Both the position numbers and the translations under genes were made by a program. This document shows, piece by piece, positions 29,982-54,489 of a stretch of 64,000 bases of DNA. The notes beneath the pieces were generated by a model, which had not been told where the DNA came from, searched no databases, and saw only the letters and a list, made by a program, of their open reading frames with translations. The DNA lies in the NCBI RefSeq assembly GCF_001463765.1, contig NZ_BBWK01000025.1:1-64000 (forward strand), given 5' to 3'. Source of the stretch: Aureimonas sp. AU4. GTDB lineage: Bacteria; Pseudomonadota; Alphaproteobacteria; Rhizobiales; Rhizobiaceae. Position 1 is the stretch's first letter. Each line of letters begins with the position of its first letter.

Positions 29982-30694
29982 GCGAGCGTCCCCCGGATGG
30001 CGGGCTCGGTGCCGCGATAGACGAGAATCATCGCGAAATAGGGCGCCTCGTCGCCGGTCTCGCTCAAGGGGAGGACGCGCTCGCCCCCTTGCGTGACGCG
30101 CTCGGCATAGATCGCGTCGTCCATCAGACCGAGTTCTCCGAGGAGCCGCTTCACGCGCGAAAAATGCCGGCCGAGCTTCAGGACGGCGAGGCTGGTGGCG
30201 GCCTCGATCGCCGGGCGCAGCGTCTCGTCGGGCAACGTCGCGGGGAGCACCGTCACGACGTCGCCGCGCGCGCTCAAGGGCCGGCGGGCGCCTGCGGCGG
30301 CGGCCATCACGGACGAGACGCCGGGCACGACGACGGTGGGAAAGCGGTCGGACAATCGGGCATGGAGATACAGGAAGGAGCCGTAGAAGAAGGGGTCGCC
30401 CTCGCACAGCACCGCGACGTCGCGGCCGGCCTCGAGGTGCTCGGCGATCAGCGGGGCGGCGCGATCGTAGGCGGCCTGGCCGGGCGCGCGGTCGCCCGAC
30501 ATGAGAAGGGGGATCGCGATCTCTTCCTGTTCGCCGGGCAAGTGCGGCGCGGCGATCGCGCGCGCGAGGCTCTGCGATCCTTCCGCCGCGGGATAGGCGA
30601 TCACCGGAACGCTGCGCAGGATGCGGTGCGCTTTCAAAGTGAGAAGCTCGGGGTCGCCGGGACCGAGGCCGAGGCCGTAGAGCGTGCCGGTCAT
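29978..30694 (-). CDS. cobI: Precorrin-2 C20-methyltransferase (CobI/CbiL)
   Basis: A 238-residue tetrapyrrole methylase. GLGLGPGDPELLTLKAHRIL is the start signature, VAVLCEGDPFFYGSFLYLH the SAM-binding loop and VVPGVSSVMAAAAGARRPL the next conserved block. It adds the C20 methyl group to precorrin-2 or its cobalt form. Both ends overlap neighbours by 4 nt (cobL upstream, cbiG-cobJ downstream), indicating coupled translation. Confidence 0.95.
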   Translation of the reverse strand: MTGTLYGLGLGPGDPELLTLKAHRILRSVPVIAYPAAEGSQSLARAIAAPHLPGEQEEIAIPLLMSGDRAPGQAAYDRAAPLIAEHLEAGRDVAVLCEGDPFFYGSFLYLHARLSDRFPTVVVPGVSSVMAAAAGARRPLSARGDVVTVLPATLPDETLRPAIEAATSLAVLKLGRHFSRVKRLLGELGLMDDAIYAERVTQGGERVLPLSETGDEAPYFAMILVYRGTEPAIRGTLA

Positions 30695-31902
30695 GGCCGG
30701 GCCTTTCGCAGGCACCAGTGGGTCACGGGCATGGCCGGGCGCCAGCCGCGATAGGGACCGACCGGCTCGGCGTGGCTGACCGCGACGCGCAAGAGTTCGC
30801 CGCCGTGCACCTCGTGGAGAGCGAGGAGGATCGCCTCCGACTCCAGCGTCACGGCATGGGCGACGAGCCGGCCGCCGCCCTTCAGCGCGGCGAAGGCGGC
30901 GTGGAAGACGCCGTCCGTGAGCCCGCCGCCGATGAACACGGCATCGGGCGCGGGCAGGCCCTCGAACGCGGCGGGTGCCTTGCCCTCGATGATCAGCAGG
31001 CCGTGCGTGCCGAGCCGGAAGGCGTTCTCGGCGATCATCGCGCGGCGCTCCGCGATCGGCTCGACCGCGATCGCCCGGCCACCGGGCGCGGCGCGCAGCC
31101 ATTCCACCGAGATCGAGCCCGAACCGGCTCCCACGTCCCACAGGAGCTCGCCGGCGCCGGGTGCGAGGGCGGCGAGCGCGAGGGCGCGCGGCACGCGCTT
31201 GGTCATCTTGCCGTCGTGCCGGAAGGCGTCGTCCGGCAGGCCGGTGGCGAAGGGGTGATGCACCGTCCCCTCGCCCATCCGGCACTCCACCGCGAGCGTG
31301 TTGAGAGCGGCGACGTCGGGAAGCGCGAACCCGTCGGCCTCTGCCTCACGCACCCACTCGGCCGGGCCGCCGAGATGTTCCAGGACGGCGATGCGGCTCG
31401 GGCCGAAGCCGCGACGGCGGAGGAGATCGGCGACGCGGGCCGGCGAGGCGCCGTCCTCGGACAGGACGAGGAGCCGCGCGCCCGGCGCGACGTGCGGATT
31501 CAGCGCCTCGACCTCGCGCCCGTGAATGGTCAGGCAGCGCACCGCCTCCAGCGCCCAGCCCATCCGTGCGGCCGCCAGCGAAAAGGCGGACGGCCCCGGC
31601 AGGACGCGCATCTCGCCCGCGTCGAGAAACGTGCGCAGCCAGCGCGCCGGGCCGAACCAGGACGGATCGCCGGTCGCGAGCACGACAGCGGGAGACCCAC
31701 GCGCGGCGAGGATGTCGGCGGCCGACTCGGCGAACGGCGAGCGCCAGCGGACGCGCCGCGCGGGATGGTCGCCCAGCATGGCGAGATGACGCTCACCCCC
31801 GAACACGGTCTGCGCCCCGTCGAGTGCGCGGCGCGCCTCGGGGGTCAGCGTGTCGAGGCCGCCGTCACCGACGCCGATCACGTGGAGCCAGGGCGCGCTC
31901 AT
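30691..31902 (-). CDS. cobL: Precorrin-6Y C5,15-methyltransferase (CobL/CbiET)
   Basis: A 403-residue two-domain enzyme. Residues 1-205 are the CbiE-type methylase (HVIGVGDGGLDTLTPEARRA, PGPSAFSLAAARMGW). Residues 215-400 are the CbiT-type methyltransferase/decarboxylase with the SAM loop LLWDVGAGSGSISVEWLR and VFIGGGLTDG. It methylates C5 and C15 and removes the C12 acetate carboxyl. Its ATG overlaps the cobH stop and its stop overlaps cobI. Confidence 0.95.
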   Translation of the reverse strand: MSAPWLHVIGVGDGGLDTLTPEARRALDGAQTVFGGERHLAMLGDHPARRVRWRSPFAESAADILAARGSPAVVLATGDPSWFGPARWLRTFLDAGEMRVLPGPSAFSLAAARMGWALEAVRCLTIHGREVEALNPHVAPGARLLVLSEDGASPARVADLLRRRGFGPSRIAVLEHLGGPAEWVREAEADGFALPDVAALNTLAVECRMGEGTVHHPFATGLPDDAFRHDGKMTKRVPRALALAALAPGAGELLWDVGAGSGSISVEWLRAAPGGRAIAVEPIAERRAMIAENAFRLGTHGLLIIEGKAPAAFEGLPAPDAVFIGGGLTDGVFHAAFAALKGGGRLVAHAVTLESEAILLALHEVHGGELLRVAVSHAEPVGPYRGWRPAMPVTHWCLRKARP

Positions 31903-32528
31903 GCGAGGCCCGAGACGAGGGCGTTGACGGCGGCGGCCGCCACGGCCGAGCCGCCGCGCCGGCCGCGCAAGGCGGCGAAGGGGACGCCGCGAGGGCTCCG
32001 CTCCAGCTCGGCCTTGGACTCGGCCGCGCCCACGAAGCCGACGGGGAAGCCGAGGATCACGGCCGGGCGCGGCGCCCCGGCATCCAGCCGCTCCAAGAGG
32101 CGGAAGAGCGCGGTCGGCGCGTTGCCGATCGCGACCACCGCGCCCTCCAAGTCCCAGAGGTCGACCTGCGCGGCCGAGCGCGTCGTGCCGGTCTCACGCG
32201 CCATCGCCGGTACGCGCGGATCGTTGAGGAGGCAGACGACCTCGACGCCGGCCGGCAGGTTGCGCGCGATGATGCCGTGCCGCACCATCTCGGCGTCCAC
32301 CAAGATATGCGCGCCTCCGGCCAGCGCCGCGCGGCCCGCCTCCACCGCATCGGGCGAGAGGGCGAGGTCGTCGATCGCATCCACCATGCCGCAGCTATGG
32401 GCGATGCGGATGGCGAGATCGCGCGCGGTCTCCGGCAGGCACGCGAGCGCTTCCGCCCCCTCCTCGCGGATGGTGCGGAAACTTTGATCGTAGATCGCGG
32501 CGGGATCGCGCTCGTAGTGAAGAGCCAT
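31899..32528 (-). CDS. cobH: Precorrin-8X methylmutase (CobH/CbiC)
   Basis: A 209-residue enzyme that moves the methyl group from C11 to C12, giving (hydrogeno/cobyrinic) acid. Conserved segments are YDQSFRTIREE near the N-terminus, the active-site IRIAHSCGMVDAIDDLALS with its His, HILVDAEMVRHGI and GFPVGFVGAAESKAEL. It follows cbiX after 6 bp and overlaps cobL by 4 nt. Confidence 0.95.
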   Translation of the reverse strand: MALHYERDPAAIYDQSFRTIREEGAEALACLPETARDLAIRIAHSCGMVDAIDDLALSPDAVEAGRAALAGGAHILVDAEMVRHGIIARNLPAGVEVVCLLNDPRVPAMARETGTTRSAAQVDLWDLEGAVVAIGNAPTALFRLLERLDAGAPRPAVILGFPVGFVGAAESKAELERSPRGVPFAALRGRRGGSAVAAAAVNALVSGLA

Positions 32529-32534
32529 CGCGCC

Positions 32535-33647
32535 TCACCGTTTCATCGAGCGCGGGCCCAGCGGGTGGTCGGCATGGGGATAGGGATGATGCGTGTGGTC
32601 GTGCCCGTGCGAATGCCCGTGCGCGTGGTCATGGCCATGCGCGTGGTCGTGGCCATGGTCGTGCGAATGGGAGTGAGCGTGCCCATGGGCGTGGTCATGC
32701 CCGTGGTGATGGTGCTCGTGGTCGCCGTGCGCATGGTCGTGATGAGCGTGCCCGTGCCCGTCCGGGGCCGCCGGCCCGGTGCCGATGCCCTCGACGTGGT
32801 GGTGATGGCTCTCCTGCGGCAAGCCGACTTCCGCCTCGAAGCCCAGCACCTGCTCGCGATACTTGCACATCTGGCAGTTCATCGTGTTGGTGCCCTCGCC
32901 TATCTCCGCGAGCCGATCGACGAAGGTCTCCACCACGAGGTCGTGGGCGCCGAGATAGCCCGCCTTCAGGAAGCGGATCTCCGGGTGCCCGGCCGCGACC
33001 TTGTCGACGCCGGCATAGATGCGGTCGATGAGGATGCCGGTGAACAGGAAGTAGGGGAACACGACGATCCGCCGGTAGCCGAGGCGGGCGGCATGGGTCA
33101 GCCCCGGTTCGACCAGGGGGAAGGTGACGCCAGAATAAGCCGTCTCGCCCCAGCCGAAGCCGAGGCCCTCCCAGAGCATGCGCATGACCTTGGCGACGTT
33201 CGAGTTGGCGTCGGGGTCGGAGGCGCCCCGCCCCACCACCACCAGCATCGTGTCGTGCAGCGGCTCGCCGTCGCGCCAGCCGTCGCGGCGCAGCGCCTCG
33301 CGAATGCGCTCGCCGGCGGCGCGGATCATCTTGGGGTCGATCCCCAGCTCGCGGCCGTACAGGATCTCGACGCCGTTGGCGCTCGCATAGGTGTTGAGGA
33401 CGGAGGGGATGTCGTTCTTGGCGTGGCCGGCGGCGAACAGCATGCCCGGCAGCGCCATGATCTGCGTGGCGCCCGCCTCGCGCAGGCGGTCCAGCCCGTC
33501 GCGGATAATCGGGGTCGCGAACTCGAGATAGCCGTAGTCGACGCGCCAGTCCGGCAGGCGGCGCGCCATCTTCTCGGAGAGGCCCCGGAACTCCTCCACC
33601 GCGCCGCGGTCCCGCGAGCCGTGGCCGCACATCATCAGCGCCTTCAT
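32535..33647 (-). CDS. cbiX: Sirohydrochlorin cobaltochelatase CbiX with His-rich tail
   Basis: A 370-residue CbiX that inserts cobalt into sirohydrochlorin, the committing step of the cobalt-early route. The two chelatase halves carry MMCGHGSRD (His9) and FAAGHAKND (His75), then VVVGRGASDPDANSN in the second half. MNCQMCKYR (Cys258 and Cys261) is the CxxC motif known from long CbiX proteins. Residues from about 280 to the end form a tail with about 37 histidines, likely a metal store or sensor. It is the first gene of the cob operon and is preceded by a structured leader. Confidence 0.93.
   Translation of the reverse strand: MKALMMCGHGSRDRGAVEEFRGLSEKMARRLPDWRVDYGYLEFATPIIRDGLDRLREAGATQIMALPGMLFAAGHAKNDIPSVLNTYASANGVEILYGRELGIDPKMIRAAGERIREALRRDGWRDGEPLHDTMLVVVGRGASDPDANSNVAKVMRMLWEGLGFGWGETAYSGVTFPLVEPGLTHAARLGYRRIVVFPYFLFTGILIDRIYAGVDKVAAGHPEIRFLKAGYLGAHDLVVETFVDRLAEIGEGTNTMNCQMCKYREQVLGFEAEVGLPQESHHHHVEGIGTGPAAPDGHGHAHHDHAHGDHEHHHHGHDHAHGHAHSHSHDHGHDHAHGHDHAHGHSHGHDHTHHPYPHADHPLGPRSMKR
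32565..32810 (-). repeat. Low-complexity His/Asp/Gly codon tract in cbiX
   Basis: About 245 bp of degenerate repeats of CAC/CAT alternating with GAC, GGC and GCC codons (HDHAHGHAH-like units). The units vary in codon choice, so the tract is an imperfect repeat and not a simple microsatellite. Length differences between strains would be expected through slippage. Confidence 0.85.
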
Positions 33648-33800
33648 GGGCGCCTCCTTTCATCCAAAGGCCGAAAGGAGGCGCGGCGCGCTGGGGCGCT
33701 TCCGCGTGGCTCTTTCCGACAGTCTCCCCGCCAGCCCCCGGATTGGGTCGGCCGCGACAGGAATCGTTTCGTGAGCTCGAACCGTCGAGCACCGTCAGGC
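33648..33800 (-). promoter_or_regulatory. Structured leader of the cbiX-cob operon (candidate riboswitch)
   Basis: About 150 nt between the promoter and cbiX. It contains the hairpin GCTCG-ACGGTT-CGAGC, then AATCC followed by GGGGGCTGG, ACTGTCGG and GAGCCAC...GGAAGCGCC. Those blocks appear in the same order as the conserved pieces of a cobalamin riboswitch core (AATCC, GGCTG, ACTGT, GCCAC, GGAAG), but the canonical B12 box is missing. It ends in an RBS-hiding hairpin. A divergent or shortened cobalamin riboswitch is the leading idea; another metal or corrin sensor is possible. Confidence 0.45.
33650..33684 (-). promoter_or_regulatory. Perfect 12-bp hairpin hiding the cbiX ribosome-binding site
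   Basis: On the transcribed strand GCGCCTCCTTTC pairs without mismatch with GAAAGGAGGCGC, around an 11-nt loop. The right arm contains the AAGGAGG ribosome-binding site and ends 2 nt before the cbiX ATG. When formed it would block ribosome entry. No U-run follows, so it is not a terminator. This is the layout of a translational expression platform. Confidence 0.8.
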
Positions 33801-33806
33801 AGCGCG

Positions 33807-33835
33807 GTTAAACAGGGCCCGGGATGCCGCGTCAA
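33807..33835 (-). promoter_or_regulatory. Sigma-70-type promoter of the cbiX-cob operon
   Basis: On the minus strand TTGACG (33830-33835) and TTTAAC (33807-33812) are separated by exactly 17 bp. Initiation is expected near 33800, giving a leader of about 150 nt. It lies just after the kdpE stop at 33847, so the cob operon need not depend on kdp transcription. Confidence 0.6.
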
Positions 33836-33846
33836 CGCGCGCCCGT

Positions 33847-34533
33847 TCAGTCCTCGCCGATGCGGTAGCCGACGGCGGGCTCGGTCAGGATCAGGCGCGG
33901 GCGCGCCGGGTCGTCCTCGAGCTTGGCGCGCAGCTGCCCGACATAGACGCGCAGGTACTGCGTGTCGTGCTCGTGCGCCGGGCCCCAGACGGCGCGCAGG
34001 ATCTGGCGGTGGGTGACGACCTTGCCGCTGTGGCGCACGAGAAAGGCGAGGAGCTCGAACTCCTTGGGCGTCAGGCGCGTCTCGGCGCCGCCCTTGAGGA
34101 CGCGGCGGCGCGCAAGGTCCACCTCGAAGTCGCGCAGGCGCAGCTGCGCCGTCTCGCCGGCCGCCGAGATGGCGTGGCGCAGAGCCGCGCGAAGCCGCGC
34201 CATCAGCTCGCCCACGCCGAAGGGCTTGTTCACGAAGTCGTCGGCGCCCAGATCCAGCACCTCGATCTTCTCGGCCTCGCGGTCGCGCGCCGATAGCACC
34301 ACGATCGGCACGCGCGACCAGGCGCGCACGCGCTCCACCACCTGCTTCCCGTCCATGTCGGGCAGGCCGAGGTCGAGCACGACGGCCGCGGGAGACTGGT
34401 TGGCGACGGCCGCGATCCCCGCCTCGCCCGTGTCGGCGCGCAGGACCTCGTAGCCCGCCGCCTCCAGCGCCGGCTTCAGGAAGCGGTGGATGGCGGGCTC
34501 GTCGTCCACCACGAGGATGGCGGGGCGGGTCAC
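33847..34533 (-). CDS. kdpE: Response regulator KdpE
   Basis: A 228-residue OmpR/PhoB-type regulator of the kdp operon. The receiver has LVVDDEPAIHRFLK, phosphoacceptor Asp54 in VVLDLGLPDMDG and Lys in FVNKPFGVGEL. The C-terminal winged helix includes TPKEFELLAFLVRHSGKVV and QYLRVYVGQLRAKLEDDP. The GTG start overlaps the kdpD stop (GTGA). Its binding site is probably the KdpE-like box at 42080-42105. Confidence 0.95.
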   Translation of the reverse strand: MTRPAILVVDDEPAIHRFLKPALEAAGYEVLRADTGEAGIAAVANQSPAAVVLDLGLPDMDGKQVVERVRAWSRVPIVVLSARDREAEKIEVLDLGADDFVNKPFGVGELMARLRAALRHAISAAGETAQLRLRDFEVDLARRRVLKGGAETRLTPKEFELLAFLVRHSGKVVTHRQILRAVWGPAHEHDTQYLRVYVGQLRAKLEDDPARPRLILTEPAVGYRIGED

Positions 34534-47805: not shown

Positions 47806-47852
47806 GGCGGATCCGCGATTGACTCCCCGCCCCACCCCCGTATCCTGCGCGG

Positions 47853-48061
47853 CGGATGGTCCCGCGCCACGCTTCGTGCGCACGGGCTAAGAGGGAATGC
47901 GAAGGGCCGACTCAAGTCGAGGGCCCGGATCGCAGCCGACCCCGCGACTGTAGAGCGGCGAGGTTCCTCCACCGGGCTCGATGGGCCCGGAAACGCCACT
48001 GGATTCGTCCGGGAAGGCAGGAGACGACCAGCGACCCGCGAGCCAGGAGACCTGCCATCCG
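47853..48061 (+). ncRNA. Cobalamin riboswitch
   Basis: A classic cobalamin riboswitch of about 209 nt. P1 pairs CGGATGG (47853-47859) with CCATCCG (48055-48061). Conserved core blocks occur in order: GAGGGAATGCGA, CGCAGCCGACCCCGCGACTGT, GCCACTGG, CCGGGAAGGC, GACCCGCGAGCCAGGAGACCTGCC (the B12 box, about 48034-48056). It lies directly before cbtB and should lower expression of the cobalt transporter and the downstream cob genes when adenosylcobalamin is plentiful. Confidence 0.94.
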
Positions 48062-48066
48062 TACGA

Positions 48067-48085
48067 GGCGACCCGCCGGGTCGCC
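48067..48085 (+). promoter_or_regulatory. Hairpin of the riboswitch expression platform
   Basis: GGCGACCC pairs perfectly with GGGTCGCC around a 3-nt loop, 5 nt after the aptamer and 6 nt before the GGAGG ribosome-binding site of cbtB. No U-tract follows, so control is probably at translation, as is usual in alphaproteobacteria. Confidence 0.6.
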
Positions 48086-50808: not shown

Positions 50809-53800
50809 GTGCATCTGCCGCTCGCGCAAGGGGTTTCGCTCGCCGACGGGACGCCGGCCGTCGACCTCCGGCAGACGCCGGGGCGCGTTCTCGTCCTGTC
50901 CGCCGCCGACACGGAGCTGGCGAGCCTGGCGGCGGCGGCCGGGCGGCTGGACCTGCCCGGCGATGCGCTGCGGCTGGCGAATCTGGCACAGCTCAACCAC
51001 CCCATGTCGGTGGACGCGCAGCTGGAGCGTCTGGCGCCGGGCCTCAGCCTCGCGGTGATCCGGGTGCTGGGGGGGCGCGCCTACTGGGCGCATGGCTGCG
51101 AGGCCTGGAGCGCGGCGGGGCGGCGGCACGGCTTTCCCGTGCTGTTTCTTCCCGGAGACGAGCGGCCCGATGCCGAACTGGCCGCGCTCTCGACGCTCGG
51201 CGAGCCCGATGCCGGTCGTCTCGCGGCCTATCTCATGGGCGGCGGCCCGGAGAACGCCGACGCCTTTCTGCGGGCGACGCGCGCGATCCTCGACGGCACA
51301 GGCTGGCCCGAGCCCGCCCGGCCGCTGCCGCGCGCGGGCGAATGGCAGCGGCCGCGCGCGAACGCTGGCGCGCCGGTGGCCGCCGTCTGTTTCTACCGCG
51401 CGCTCCTTCAGAGCGGGCAGCTCGCCCCCGTCGAGGCGTTGTGCGAGGCGATGGAGCGCGAGGGGCTCGACCCGTTGCCGGTCTTCGTCGCGAGCCTCAA
51501 GGATGGACCGAGCGTCGACGTCCTGCGCACGCTGTTCACGCAGCGCCCGCCCGCCGTCGCCGTGAACCTCACGAGCTTCGCGGTTTCGGCCCTGCGGGGC
51601 GAGCGCGCGCCGACGGTGCTCGAGGAGAACGGCGCGGTGGTGCTGCAGGGCGTGCTGTCGGCGGGCTCGCGCGAGAGCTGGGACGCCTCGCCGCGGGGCC
51701 TGGGCGCGCGGGATCTTGCGATGAACGTGGCGCTGCCGGAGGTGGACGGACGCGTCTTCGCGCGCGCGCTCGCCTTCAAGGCGCAGGCGCGCTTCGACGC
51801 GCGCTGCCAGGTTTCCGTGGTCACGCACGAGCCGGACGCAGGCGGCATCCGCTTCACCGCGCAGCTGGCCGCAAGCTGGGCGCGGCTGCGCGCGAAACCT
51901 GCACCGGAGCGTCGCGTCGCGATCGTGCTCGCCAACTACCCGAACCGCGACGGGCGGCTCGGCAACGGCGTCGGCCTCGACACGCCGGCGGGAACGGTGG
52001 AGGTGCTGCGCGCGATGCGGGACGCCGGCTACGGGGTCGGCGACATGCCGGCGGACGGCGACGCGCTGATGCGGCGCCTTGCCGAGGGGCCGACGAATGC
52101 GGGCGTCGCGGGCCGCCGGATCGGGGAAACCTGGCCGCGCGAGCGGCACGAGGCCTTTCTTGCGACCTTGCCGGACGCGCTGCGCCAAGCCGTCACCGAC
52201 CGCTGGGGCACGCCGGAAAGCGACCCGATGTTCGCAAACGACGCCTTCGCGCTGCCGGTCATGCGCCTGGGCGACGGCGTCGCGATCGGCGTCCAGCCGG
52301 CGCGCGGCTACAACATCGATCCCGCCTCGAGCTTCCACGATCCCGCGCTGGTTCCCCCGCACAACTACCTCGCCTTCTACGGCTGGCTACGTGCTGGGCT
52401 AAAGGCCGATGCCGTGATCCACATGGGCAAGCACGGCAACCTCGAATGGCTGCCCGGCAAGGCGCTGGGATCCTCCGAGACCTGCTGGCCGCAGGCGCTT
52501 CTCGGCCCCCTGCCCCATCTCTACCCCTTCATCGTCAACGATCCCGGCGAGGGAAGTCAGGCCAAGCGCCGCACGGCCGGCGTCGTGGTGGACCACCTGA
52601 CGCCGCCGCTGACGCGCGCCGACGCGCACGGCGCCGCGCGCGACCTCGAAGCGCTGGTGGACGAGTATTTCACGGCTACCGAGGGCGATCCGCGCCGCGC
52701 CAAGCTTCTGGCGCGCGAGATCGCCGATCTCGCCAAGGCGAGCGGCCTTCTGGCCGATGCCGGTCTGGGCTCGCTCGACGATCCCCAGACGCTTCAAAAG
52801 CTCGACGGCTGGCTCTGCGAGCTCAAGGAGATGCAGATCCGCGACGGGCTCCACGTCTTCGGCCGCTCGCCGGAGGGCCGGCTGCGCCGCGACACGCTTC
52901 TGGCGCTAGCCCGCCTGCCGCGCGGTCTGGAGCCGGCGGAGGCGTCGCTGACACGCGCGCTCAGTGACGATCTGGATCTGCGCTTCGACCCGCTCGGCGG
53001 CGACTGGGGCGAGCCGTGGGAGGGGCCGCGCCCGTCTGTCCTCGCGGACATCCTGCCCGGTCCCTGGCGCAGCCGAGGCGACGCGGTGGAGCGGCTGGAA
53101 GCGCTGGCCGTCGCCCTGATCGGGGGCGAGGCCGAGCCGGAGGCCGGCTGGGCCGGCACGCGCGCGGTGCTCGGCGACATCCGGGGGCGCCTTGCGCCCG
53201 CGCTGGACCGCTCGGGAGCGGCCGAGATCGCGGGGCTGCTGGCCGGCCTCGACGGGCGCTTCGTACCCCCCGGCCCGTCGGGCGCGCCGACGCGCGGGCG
53301 GCCCGACACGCTGCCGACGGGGCGCAACTTCTTCTCGGTCGACACGCGCGGCGTGCCCACCGAGGCGGCCTGGAGCCTCGGGCGCCGCTCGGCCGAGCTG
53401 TTGCTCGCCCGCCACGCGCAGGATCACGGCGAGCCCTTGCGCGCGCTGGCGCTGACCGCTTGGGGCACCGCCAACATGCGCACGGGTGGCGACGACATCG
53501 CGCAGGCGCTCGCCCTGATCGGCGTCCAGCCGACCTGGGAGCGGGCGAGCGGGCGCGTCACCGGATTCGAGATCCTGACGCCCGCCCGTCTGGGGCGCGG
53601 ACGCGTCGATGTCACGCTACGCATCTCCGGCTTCTTTCGCGACGCCTTTCCCGAGCAGATCGCCCTGTTCGACCGTGCCTGCCGGGCGGTGGCACTGCTC
53701 GACGAGGACGAGGAGGACAACCCGATCGCCGCGCGCTTTCGCGACGAGGCGACCGCCTTCGAACGCGAAGGACATGCGGCCGAGGCCGCGCGGCGCATGG

Positions 53801-54489
53801 CGGGGGCGCGCGTCTTCGGCTCCATGCCCGGCTCCTACGGCGCGGGGCTGCAGGCGCTGATCGACGAGGGCGGCTGGCATACGCGCGCGGATCTCGCCGA
53901 AGGCTTCCTCGTCTGGGGAGGCTTCAGCTACGGCGACGGCGAGGAGGGCATGCCCGCCCGGCCCCTTCTGGAGCGCCGTCTCGCCGCCGTCGAAGCCGTC
54001 GTCCAGAACCAGGACAATCGCGAGCACGACCTTCTCGACTCCGACGACTACTACCAGTTCGAGGGGGGGCTGGCGGCGAGCGTCGAGCACCTTTCGGGGC
54101 AGGCGCCCGCGAGCTACCACCTCGACCACTCCAACCCCGAGCGCCCCGTGCCGCGCACGCTCGCCGAGGAGATCGCGCGGGTCGTGCGCGGGCGCGCCGC
54201 CAACCCGAAGTGGATCGCAGGCGTGATGCGACACGGCTACAAGGGCGCCTTCGAGATGGCGGCCACCGTGGACTACCTCTTCGCGTTCGCCGCCACCACG
54301 AACGCCGTGCCCGGCCGCCACTTCGACCTCCTGCACGACGCCTATATCGGCGACGAGGCCGTGCGCGGCTTCATGGAGAAACACAATCCCGCGGCGCTCG
54401 CCGAGATGGAGGCGCGTTTCGCGGAAGCGGTGCGGCGCGGCTTCTGGCATCCTCGCCGCAACGACCTCACGACAAGGATCGCCTCATGA
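50809..54489 (+). CDS. cobN: Cobaltochelatase large subunit CobN
   Basis: A 1226-residue CobN/magnesium-chelatase H-like protein that binds hydrogenobyrinate a,c-diamide and inserts cobalt late, in the aerobic route. Conserved blocks are ANYPNRDGRLGNGVGLDTP, RGYNIDPASSFHDPALVPPH, VIHMGKHGNLEWLPGKALG, WGTANMRTGGDDIAQALALI and QDNREHDLLDSDDYYQFEGG. The GTG at 50809 is used and fits the short spacing after cobW. The chelatase partners CobS and CobT (the AAA+ and VWA subunits) are not in the window. The stop overlaps the cobO ATG. Confidence 0.96.
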   Translation: MHLPLAQGVSLADGTPAVDLRQTPGRVLVLSAADTELASLAAAAGRLDLPGDALRLANLAQLNHPMSVDAQLERLAPGLSLAVIRVLGGRAYWAHGCEAWSAAGRRHGFPVLFLPGDERPDAELAALSTLGEPDAGRLAAYLMGGGPENADAFLRATRAILDGTGWPEPARPLPRAGEWQRPRANAGAPVAAVCFYRALLQSGQLAPVEALCEAMEREGLDPLPVFVASLKDGPSVDVLRTLFTQRPPAVAVNLTSFAVSALRGERAPTVLEENGAVVLQGVLSAGSRESWDASPRGLGARDLAMNVALPEVDGRVFARALAFKAQARFDARCQVSVVTHEPDAGGIRFTAQLAASWARLRAKPAPERRVAIVLANYPNRDGRLGNGVGLDTPAGTVEVLRAMRDAGYGVGDMPADGDALMRRLAEGPTNAGVAGRRIGETWPRERHEAFLATLPDALRQAVTDRWGTPESDPMFANDAFALPVMRLGDGVAIGVQPARGYNIDPASSFHDPALVPPHNYLAFYGWLRAGLKADAVIHMGKHGNLEWLPGKALGSSETCWPQALLGPLPHLYPFIVNDPGEGSQAKRRTAGVVVDHLTPPLTRADAHGAARDLEALVDEYFTATEGDPRRAKLLAREIADLAKASGLLADAGLGSLDDPQTLQKLDGWLCELKEMQIRDGLHVFGRSPEGRLRRDTLLALARLPRGLEPAEASLTRALSDDLDLRFDPLGGDWGEPWEGPRPSVLADILPGPWRSRGDAVERLEALAVALIGGEAEPEAGWAGTRAVLGDIRGRLAPALDRSGAAEIAGLLAGLDGRFVPPGPSGAPTRGRPDTLPTGRNFFSVDTRGVPTEAAWSLGRRSAELLLARHAQDHGEPLRALALTAWGTANMRTGGDDIAQALALIGVQPTWERASGRVTGFEILTPARLGRGRVDVTLRISGFFRDAFPEQIALFDRACRAVALLDEDEEDNPIAARFRDEATAFEREGHAAEAARRMAGARVFGSMPGSYGAGLQALIDEGGWHTRADLAEGFLVWGGFSYGDGEEGMPARPLLERRLAAVEAVVQNQDNREHDLLDSDDYYQFEGGLAASVEHLSGQAPASYHLDHSNPERPVPRTLAEEIARVVRGRAANPKWIAGVMRHGYKGAFEMAATVDYLFAFAATTNAVPGRHFDLLHDAYIGDEAVRGFMEKHNPAALAEMEARFAEAVRRGFWHPRRNDLTTRIAS

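Follow-up and report, generated by a model that had tools for sequence, protein, structure and literature searches.

A short leader RNA related to the 5' half of cobalamin riboswitches precedes corrin-ring genes in Aureimonas and other Alphaproteobacteria: a riboswitch candidate

Few RNA sensors are as widespread, or as much studied, as the cobalamin riboswitches. PMC11260477 and PMC10907184 place the ligand in the four-way junction of helices P3–P6, which is organised by a contact between loops L4 and L6, and PMC10907184, PMC11260477 and PMC7689651 describe an architecture that includes a kissing loop and the B12 box. RF01689 (AdoCbl-variant) is a named variant of the cobalamin riboswitch from marine sequences (PMC2864571).

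The stretch of DNA analysed here, referred to as the window, comprises 64,000 nt of Aureimonas sp. AU4 (contig NZ_BBWK01000025.1). It contains one full cobalamin riboswitch (RF00174) upstream of cbtA and, on the minus strand, a leader of about 150 nt between kdpE (end 33847) and cbiX (start 33647). KdpE- and KdpD-like proteins are encoded upstream of this leader (Pfam, NCBIfam), and genes for the corrin ring follow it (Table 1). A sequence-only reading had described a promoter, the length of the leader, a perfect 12-bp stem over the AAGGAGG of cbiX, the absence of the usual B12 box and a textbook riboswitch at 47853, and all of these hold. On balance the leader probably houses a small regulatory RNA acting in cis, about 80 nt long, whose ancestor was the 5' half of a cobalamin riboswitch and which regulates genes for the corrin ring, here cbiX, cobH and cobL. 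That it is a structured RNA, associated with particular genes and akin to one half of the cobalamin riboswitch, is well supported. No Rfam 15 family matched the short RNA, which makes it an unlisted relative of a familiar sensor and a riboswitch candidate without an Rfam family.

Table 1. Positions of the leader features, the downstream genes and the full riboswitch used for comparison in the window
Feature	Positions	Strand	Basis
Putative sigma-70-type promoter, TTGACG-17-TTTAAC	33807..33835	-	Sequence; TTGAC upstream in 49/93 motif loci
Conserved structured RNA, three-way junction of P1, P2 and P4-like arm	33716..33799	-	R1 35.0 bits, E 3.3e-7; covariation
P1, 5' strand, TGACGGT	33791..33797	-	R1 match, covariation
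P2 hairpin, GCTCGA-CGGT-TCGAGC	33775..33790	-	R1 match, folding
Distal P4-like hairpin, GGCC-GA-CCC-AATCC-GGG-GGCT, with near-invariant GA bulge	33733..33753	-	R1 match, conservation
P1, 3' strand, ACTGTCG, immediately following the P4-like arm, in the place of the B12-box strand	33717..33723	-	R1 match, covariation
Predicted stem-loop lying between conserved RNA and ribosome-site hairpin	33683..33705	-	Folding
12-bp hairpin around the cbiX ribosome binding site, predicted expression platform	33650..33684	-	Sequence, folding
cbiX, CbiX family chelatase with His-rich tail, first downstream gene	32535..33647	-	PF01903
cobH, precorrin-8X methylmutase	31899..32528	-	Pfam/NCBIfam
cobL, CbiE and CbiT domains	30691..31902	-	Pfam/NCBIfam
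Full cobalamin riboswitch, RF00174, before cbtA (comparison)	47840..48073	+	87.9 bits

A conserved, covarying element in the cbiX leader

The putative promoter of the leader has its first hexamer starting at 33835 and its second at 33812 on the minus strand. A consensus promoter scanner listed no promoter at the leader, since in the second hexamer it needs A as the second letter and T as the sixth, and TTTAAC has neither. Comparison across the motif loci described below supports the assignment: TTGAC lies 20–60 nt upstream of 49 of the 93 related motifs, with a peak at −40 to −31, as against 1–4 of 93 per 40-nt window in the control region 60 to 200 nt upstream. The commonest spacing of the TTGAC-type promoter among these loci is likewise 17 nt.

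When the window CbiX was used as a query, matches were found in 32 of 61 related genomes, and a recurrent string, ACGGTGCC..GGCT..CGGCCGACCCAA..GGGGGC..CTGTCGG, was seen upstream of cbiX; it recurs in the genus and is varied in other families. Ten sequences from outside Aureimonas (L019–L028) were aligned (alignment A4) and used to build a model, R1; the helix names used here were transferred from the Rfam structure line of RF00174. The A4 alignment has a 24-pair structure in which 94.2% of the cells are paired and 17 of the 24 pairs show changes on both sides. Covariation as high was reached in 0 of 500 shuffles, sliding the strands by 1–3 columns drops pairing to 35–55%, and RNAalifold, unaided, recovers 23 of the 24 pairs. 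The same model, with no Aureimonas sequence in its training, detects the window copy. In a larger alignment (A8) of 97 loci, which were picked for diversity among the matched loci and fitted to R1, so that the pair counts lean to that model, all 24 pairs show double changes with 93.8% of cells paired (0 of 500 shuffles). Covariation among relatives, a check proposed with the sequence-only reading, is thus found both in the small alignment and in the large one.

Several unpaired positions are near-invariant: an A in the strand that follows P2 (0.96), both positions of the GA bulge (0.98 and 1.00) and the first A of the loop (0.96). The 84-nt element of the window folded by itself is unremarkable (z −1.2), and the case for a structured element is one of comparison, not of the folding of the window copy. 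Riboswitches in general are marked by a conserved structure that covaries and stands in the leader of genes with a coherent metabolic role, and the alignments point to such a structure here. The comparative evidence makes a leader RNA for corrin-ring genes a well-supported assignment; as a riboswitch, it is a candidate.

Relationship to the cobalamin riboswitch

Searches with R1 also pick up full cobalamin riboswitches. The full riboswitch of the window matches with its 5' half (47856–47942, 28.7 bits), and of the 30 RF00174 loci examined in 16 genomes, R1 finds 25 at E <= 0.006 and a further one at E 0.3, the match being to the 5' half of a riboswitch; the match at L066 falls in a neighbouring, divergent riboswitch. 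The shared parts of the alphaproteobacterial form of RF00174 are the GACGGT-type 5' strand of P1, the P2 hairpin, the GGTGC...AA P4 arm and a GCTG after P4, as well as the place in leaders of cobalamin genes. Some full riboswitches (L233, L239) even have the same GA-bulged P4 extension hairpin; by eye, the P4 arm of L233 is nearly identical to that of the short RNA.

The two RNAs part company at P1 and beyond. Helices 2–4 covary in short RNAs and full riboswitches alike, whereas the short-type P1 shows double changes in 7 of 7 pairs in the short RNA (87.2% paired) and in 1 of 7 pairs in the full riboswitches (70.5% paired). In the short RNA the 3' strand of P1 follows directly after P4, the GGG strand of P3 and the B12 box are lacking, and the identified targets are corrin-ring genes. 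Allowing <= 3 mismatches, a B12 box turned up within 400 nt at a single one of the 94 short loci, L119, where it lies 382 nt beyond the motif, compared with none in shuffled sequences and 28 of 28 riboswitches; the window copy has none at this tolerance. The signature of the P3 strand occurs in 9 of 94 short loci, 8 shuffled and 27 of 28 riboswitches. These counts used 28 of the 30 RF00174 loci, L063 and L067 lying at contig edges. Two loose patterns, for J6/3 and P5, give weak tests, each arising by chance at roughly every second locus. They are found in 55 and 47 of the 94 short loci, as against 54 and 54 shuffled, and also close to the window copy.

At the gathering score, no Rfam family was found on the window element or in 14 related loci. 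The covariance-model check proposed with the sequence-only reading was negative: neither RF00174 nor RF01689 gave a match at E <= 10 in 33300–34100, and the same holds for both families in 13 other motif loci. The suggestion of a shortened cobalamin riboswitch needs to be divided. As to ancestry it stands, by the homology of the 5' half and by two intermediates; as to membership of RF00174 it does not, the B12 box and the P3 strand being absent. By the tested defining features the short RNA is outside RF00174; the case for calling it a cobalamin riboswitch is weaker for that, and the view that it may work in a similar way is untouched.

The apparent intermediates are found in Fodinicurvata fenggangensis (L193:2070–2236) and at L205:2752–2926. 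Both have an intact 5' half, a shortened P6 region and a degenerate B12 box; with RF00174 the first scores 46.8 bits, above threshold, and the second 25.8 bits, below it. The R1 matches make the short RNA a homologue of the 5' half of the alphaproteobacterial riboswitches. The simplest account of descent would be that a full riboswitch lost its 3' half and that P1 was then re-closed. On that account the 5' strand of P1, P2 and the P4 arm would have been retained, and a new partner strand for P1 would have taken the place of the ligand-binding half.

The short RNA shares a superficial string, GGTGCC...GGCTGAGA, with the consensus of the 5' arm of the TPP riboswitch (RF00059); the rest of the TPP fold is unlike the short RNA. 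Kinship was rejected as a likeness of strings only, with no match to that family at E <= 10. The NiCo (czcD) riboswitch could overlap in its ligand, cobalt, and gave no match to the short RNA at E <= 10; its fold and partner genes differ. Five chance-level Rfam matches at E <= 10 lie in 33300–34100; they involve no cobalamin family and do not touch the element itself, three of them adjoining it. A mir-9235 match over the L027 motif (E 6.5) is on the opposite strand and was discarded as chance.

Distribution and downstream genes

The motif is present at cbiX in all 18 Aureimonas genomes that have this gene, although L003 is only partial by R1 (19.7 bits, E 0.014). Most copies in the genus are divergent (26–41 bits with R1 for L001–L014 apart from L003), and three Aureimonas genomes without cbiX have matches only of the full-riboswitch type. 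A second model, R2, had 13 Aureimonas loci in its training, so that its scores within the genus are not independent.

A gene-blind search of 297 genomes of the order with R1 gave matches in 139 at E <= 0.01. The best 30 loci and 60 further hits were classified; some of the weaker matches overlap full B12 riboswitches. Within 1.5 kb of the best 30 loci, cbiX was found in 28 and cobH in the other two. Four of these 30 (L032, L033, L035 and L051) repeat seed loci and were excluded, which leaves, with the ten seeds, 96 classified hits: 94 short motifs and two 5' halves of full cobalamin riboswitches (L134 and L148, removed from the short set). Among the 84 non-seed short motifs, cbiX follows on the same strand in 72, cobH without cbiX in six and neither gene within reach in five, and one is at a contig edge, as detected by tblastn within the retrieved stretch. 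Among the five with neither gene, one has a CbiG_C (cobE-type) first gene by Pfam, and a second has a cobE-type gene as judged by eye.

In the set of named genomes, the best 80 of 587 relatives were taken, the closest records being Aureimonas. R1 matches 49 of the 80 cbiX loci at E <= 0.05 and R2 adds nine weak ones at E <= 0.012; by record title the matching loci include Hyphomicrobiales, Rhodobacterales and Rhodospirillaceae. The remaining 22 of the 80 have no match to R1 or R2 at these cut-offs, and the element is therefore not universal before cbiX. None of the 49 R1-matching loci contains the riboswitch core pattern, and a bare GGAGACC is seen in one (L181). RF00174 was sought in 20 of the 31 cbiX loci lacking an R1 match and found in none. 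With R2, 34 of 385 genomes of a class sample match, the genome of the window included; the ten best loci consist of six motifs with cbiX, three full riboswitches and the window copy. In a 349-genome sample of the phylum, of unspecified make-up by class, there are 18 matching genomes, every one within the Alphaproteobacteria.

The RNA, about 80 nt long, occurs across many families of a single order, is also found elsewhere in the Alphaproteobacteria, and belongs to one kind of operon. Its small size, spread and single kind of operon make it a tractable orphan, for which a short list of compounds could be assayed directly. It may explain the regulation of cbiX and cobH operons that lack a full B12 riboswitch upstream. 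No description of the element was found among the literature matches listed; most subscription journals lie beyond the scope of that search, and a prior description is possible.

A small membrane protein with HPGH...GHxHW motifs is encoded between the motif and cbiX in many loci. It belongs to DUF6732 (PF20506) in L027 and L103, the two that were run against Pfam, and similar small ORFs are seen in L037, L044, L048 and others. The DUF6732 protein may be a cobalt-handling protein.

Control of cbiX and the possible signal

In the window, the perfect stem (GCGCCTCCTTTC/GAAAGGAGGCGC, 33684–33673 with 33661–33650) that takes in the AAGGAGG of cbiX has a folding energy of −25.5 kcal/mol (z −5.9, 0 of 200 shuffles). 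In 14 of the 18 Aureimonas leaders there is a predicted stem-loop and then a hairpin that pairs the Shine-Dalgarno (SD) sequence with an upstream CCTCC-like strand, the sequences of this hairpin differing on both sides between species. Against shuffled sequence, the fold of the SD region clearly stands out in just two leaders, L001 and L002 (z −3.3), and scores between −1.6 and +0.4 in the remaining 12. In L015–L018 the element abuts the SD sequence and the start codon comes 13 nt after the element. The SD hairpin is a predicted expression platform seen in Aureimonas and lies outside the conserved element.

In partition-function folding of the 14 leaders the SD sequence stays buried both with P1 enforced and with P1 forbidden (mean unpaired probability <= 0.07); unconstrained, it is paired in 13 of 14, with L011 at 0.22 unpaired. 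Thermodynamics alone therefore offers no switching path, and a simple switch between P1 and the SD pairing was rejected for Aureimonas, the SD sequence remaining paired under both constraints. The predicted default of these leaders is the OFF state, with no route to ON visible in the folds. Termination was rejected as a common mechanism, with terminator-like sites after the motif in 11 of 94 loci and 1–5 shuffled. We infer translational control by the leader RNA, most likely ligand-dependent. The RNA would bind a small molecule tied to cobalamin metabolism, such as a corrinoid, a corrin precursor or cobalt, and binding would alter the access of the ribosome to cbiX. The nature of the target genes points to corrin synthesis or cobalt as the source of the signal.

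The most far-reaching form of this reading, which we put forward tentatively, is a new class of riboswitch in which the ligand-binding half was lost, the 5' half re-closed its outer helix and a new ligand (a corrin precursor or Co2+) came to regulate corrin-ring operons across much of the Alphaproteobacteria. If the ligand is not cobalamin, this would be an aptamer that acquired another specificity through the loss of one of its halves, and Fodinicurvata would hold living intermediates. The sequence-only reading had proposed, as its other option, a new sensor for cobalt or a corrin precursor. As to the ligand itself, re-use of the truncated scaffold to sense cobalt ions, sirohydrochlorin or a precorrin intermediate is somewhat unlikely when taken as a specific proposal. 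It accords with the narrow association with cbiX, cobH and the cobE-type gene, with the His-containing membrane protein (DUF6732 in two loci) so often found between motif and cbiX, and with the conservation of unpaired positions in an RNA whose parent's ligand core is lost. Five genomes of the test set that bear the motif without a CbiX match (G238, G041, G258, G327 and G958) speak against it, and they make a ligand specific to CbiX unlikely.

A little less likely is that the RNA is still a sensor of AdoCbl, with the same ligand held in a reduced pocket of P1, P2, the P2–P4 strand and the P4 arm. The 5' half is homologous, and the identified downstream genes make the corrin ring, a usual target of feedback by cobalamin. 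However, the ligand site given in PMC11260477 and PMC10907184 is the P3–P6 junction with its L4–L6 contact, of which no trace was found here. Full riboswitches, moreover, persist in 16 of 16 genomes examined, and no transporter gene was seen to follow any of the 84 non-seed short motifs, a count in which the first gene of L105, L106, L107 and L112 has no identification.

It is improbable that a regulatory protein binds the RNA in place of a metabolite. A protein could recognise the small stem-loops with their near-invariant GA bulge, and folding gives no alternative state, but the RNA is kin to an aptamer that binds a metabolite and retains part of its layout. A decaying remnant without function is very hard to credit: the riboswitch core is absent and most Aureimonas copies are divergent, yet every pair shows compensatory change in 97 sequences, including the new P1 that is hardly supported in full riboswitches, and the element is often kept beside a promoter element. 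Equally slight is the chance that the riboswitch is complete, with its 3' half further downstream behind an insertion, as the degenerate 3' halves at L193 and L205 might suggest; RF00174 has no match at E <= 10 in the 13 other motif loci, the B12 box appears within 400 nt in the single locus named above, and in L015–L018 the next 13 nt already lead to the start codon.

Three smaller observations concern other copies and the genome of the window. A third R2 match in this genome (G000:C71:28377–28460, 26.6 bits) precedes an ORF that by eye resembles an M3-type peptidase, and is probably due to chance. A partly degenerate copy lies upstream of cbiX at L029:2490–2568 on the minus strand (33 bits with R2), with a conserved P4 arm and a changed 3' part. 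In what is a pathway of the aerobic type, the genome encodes both CbiX, which is an early-type chelatase with a long His-rich tail, and CobN (cobN at 51226–54462 on the plus strand).
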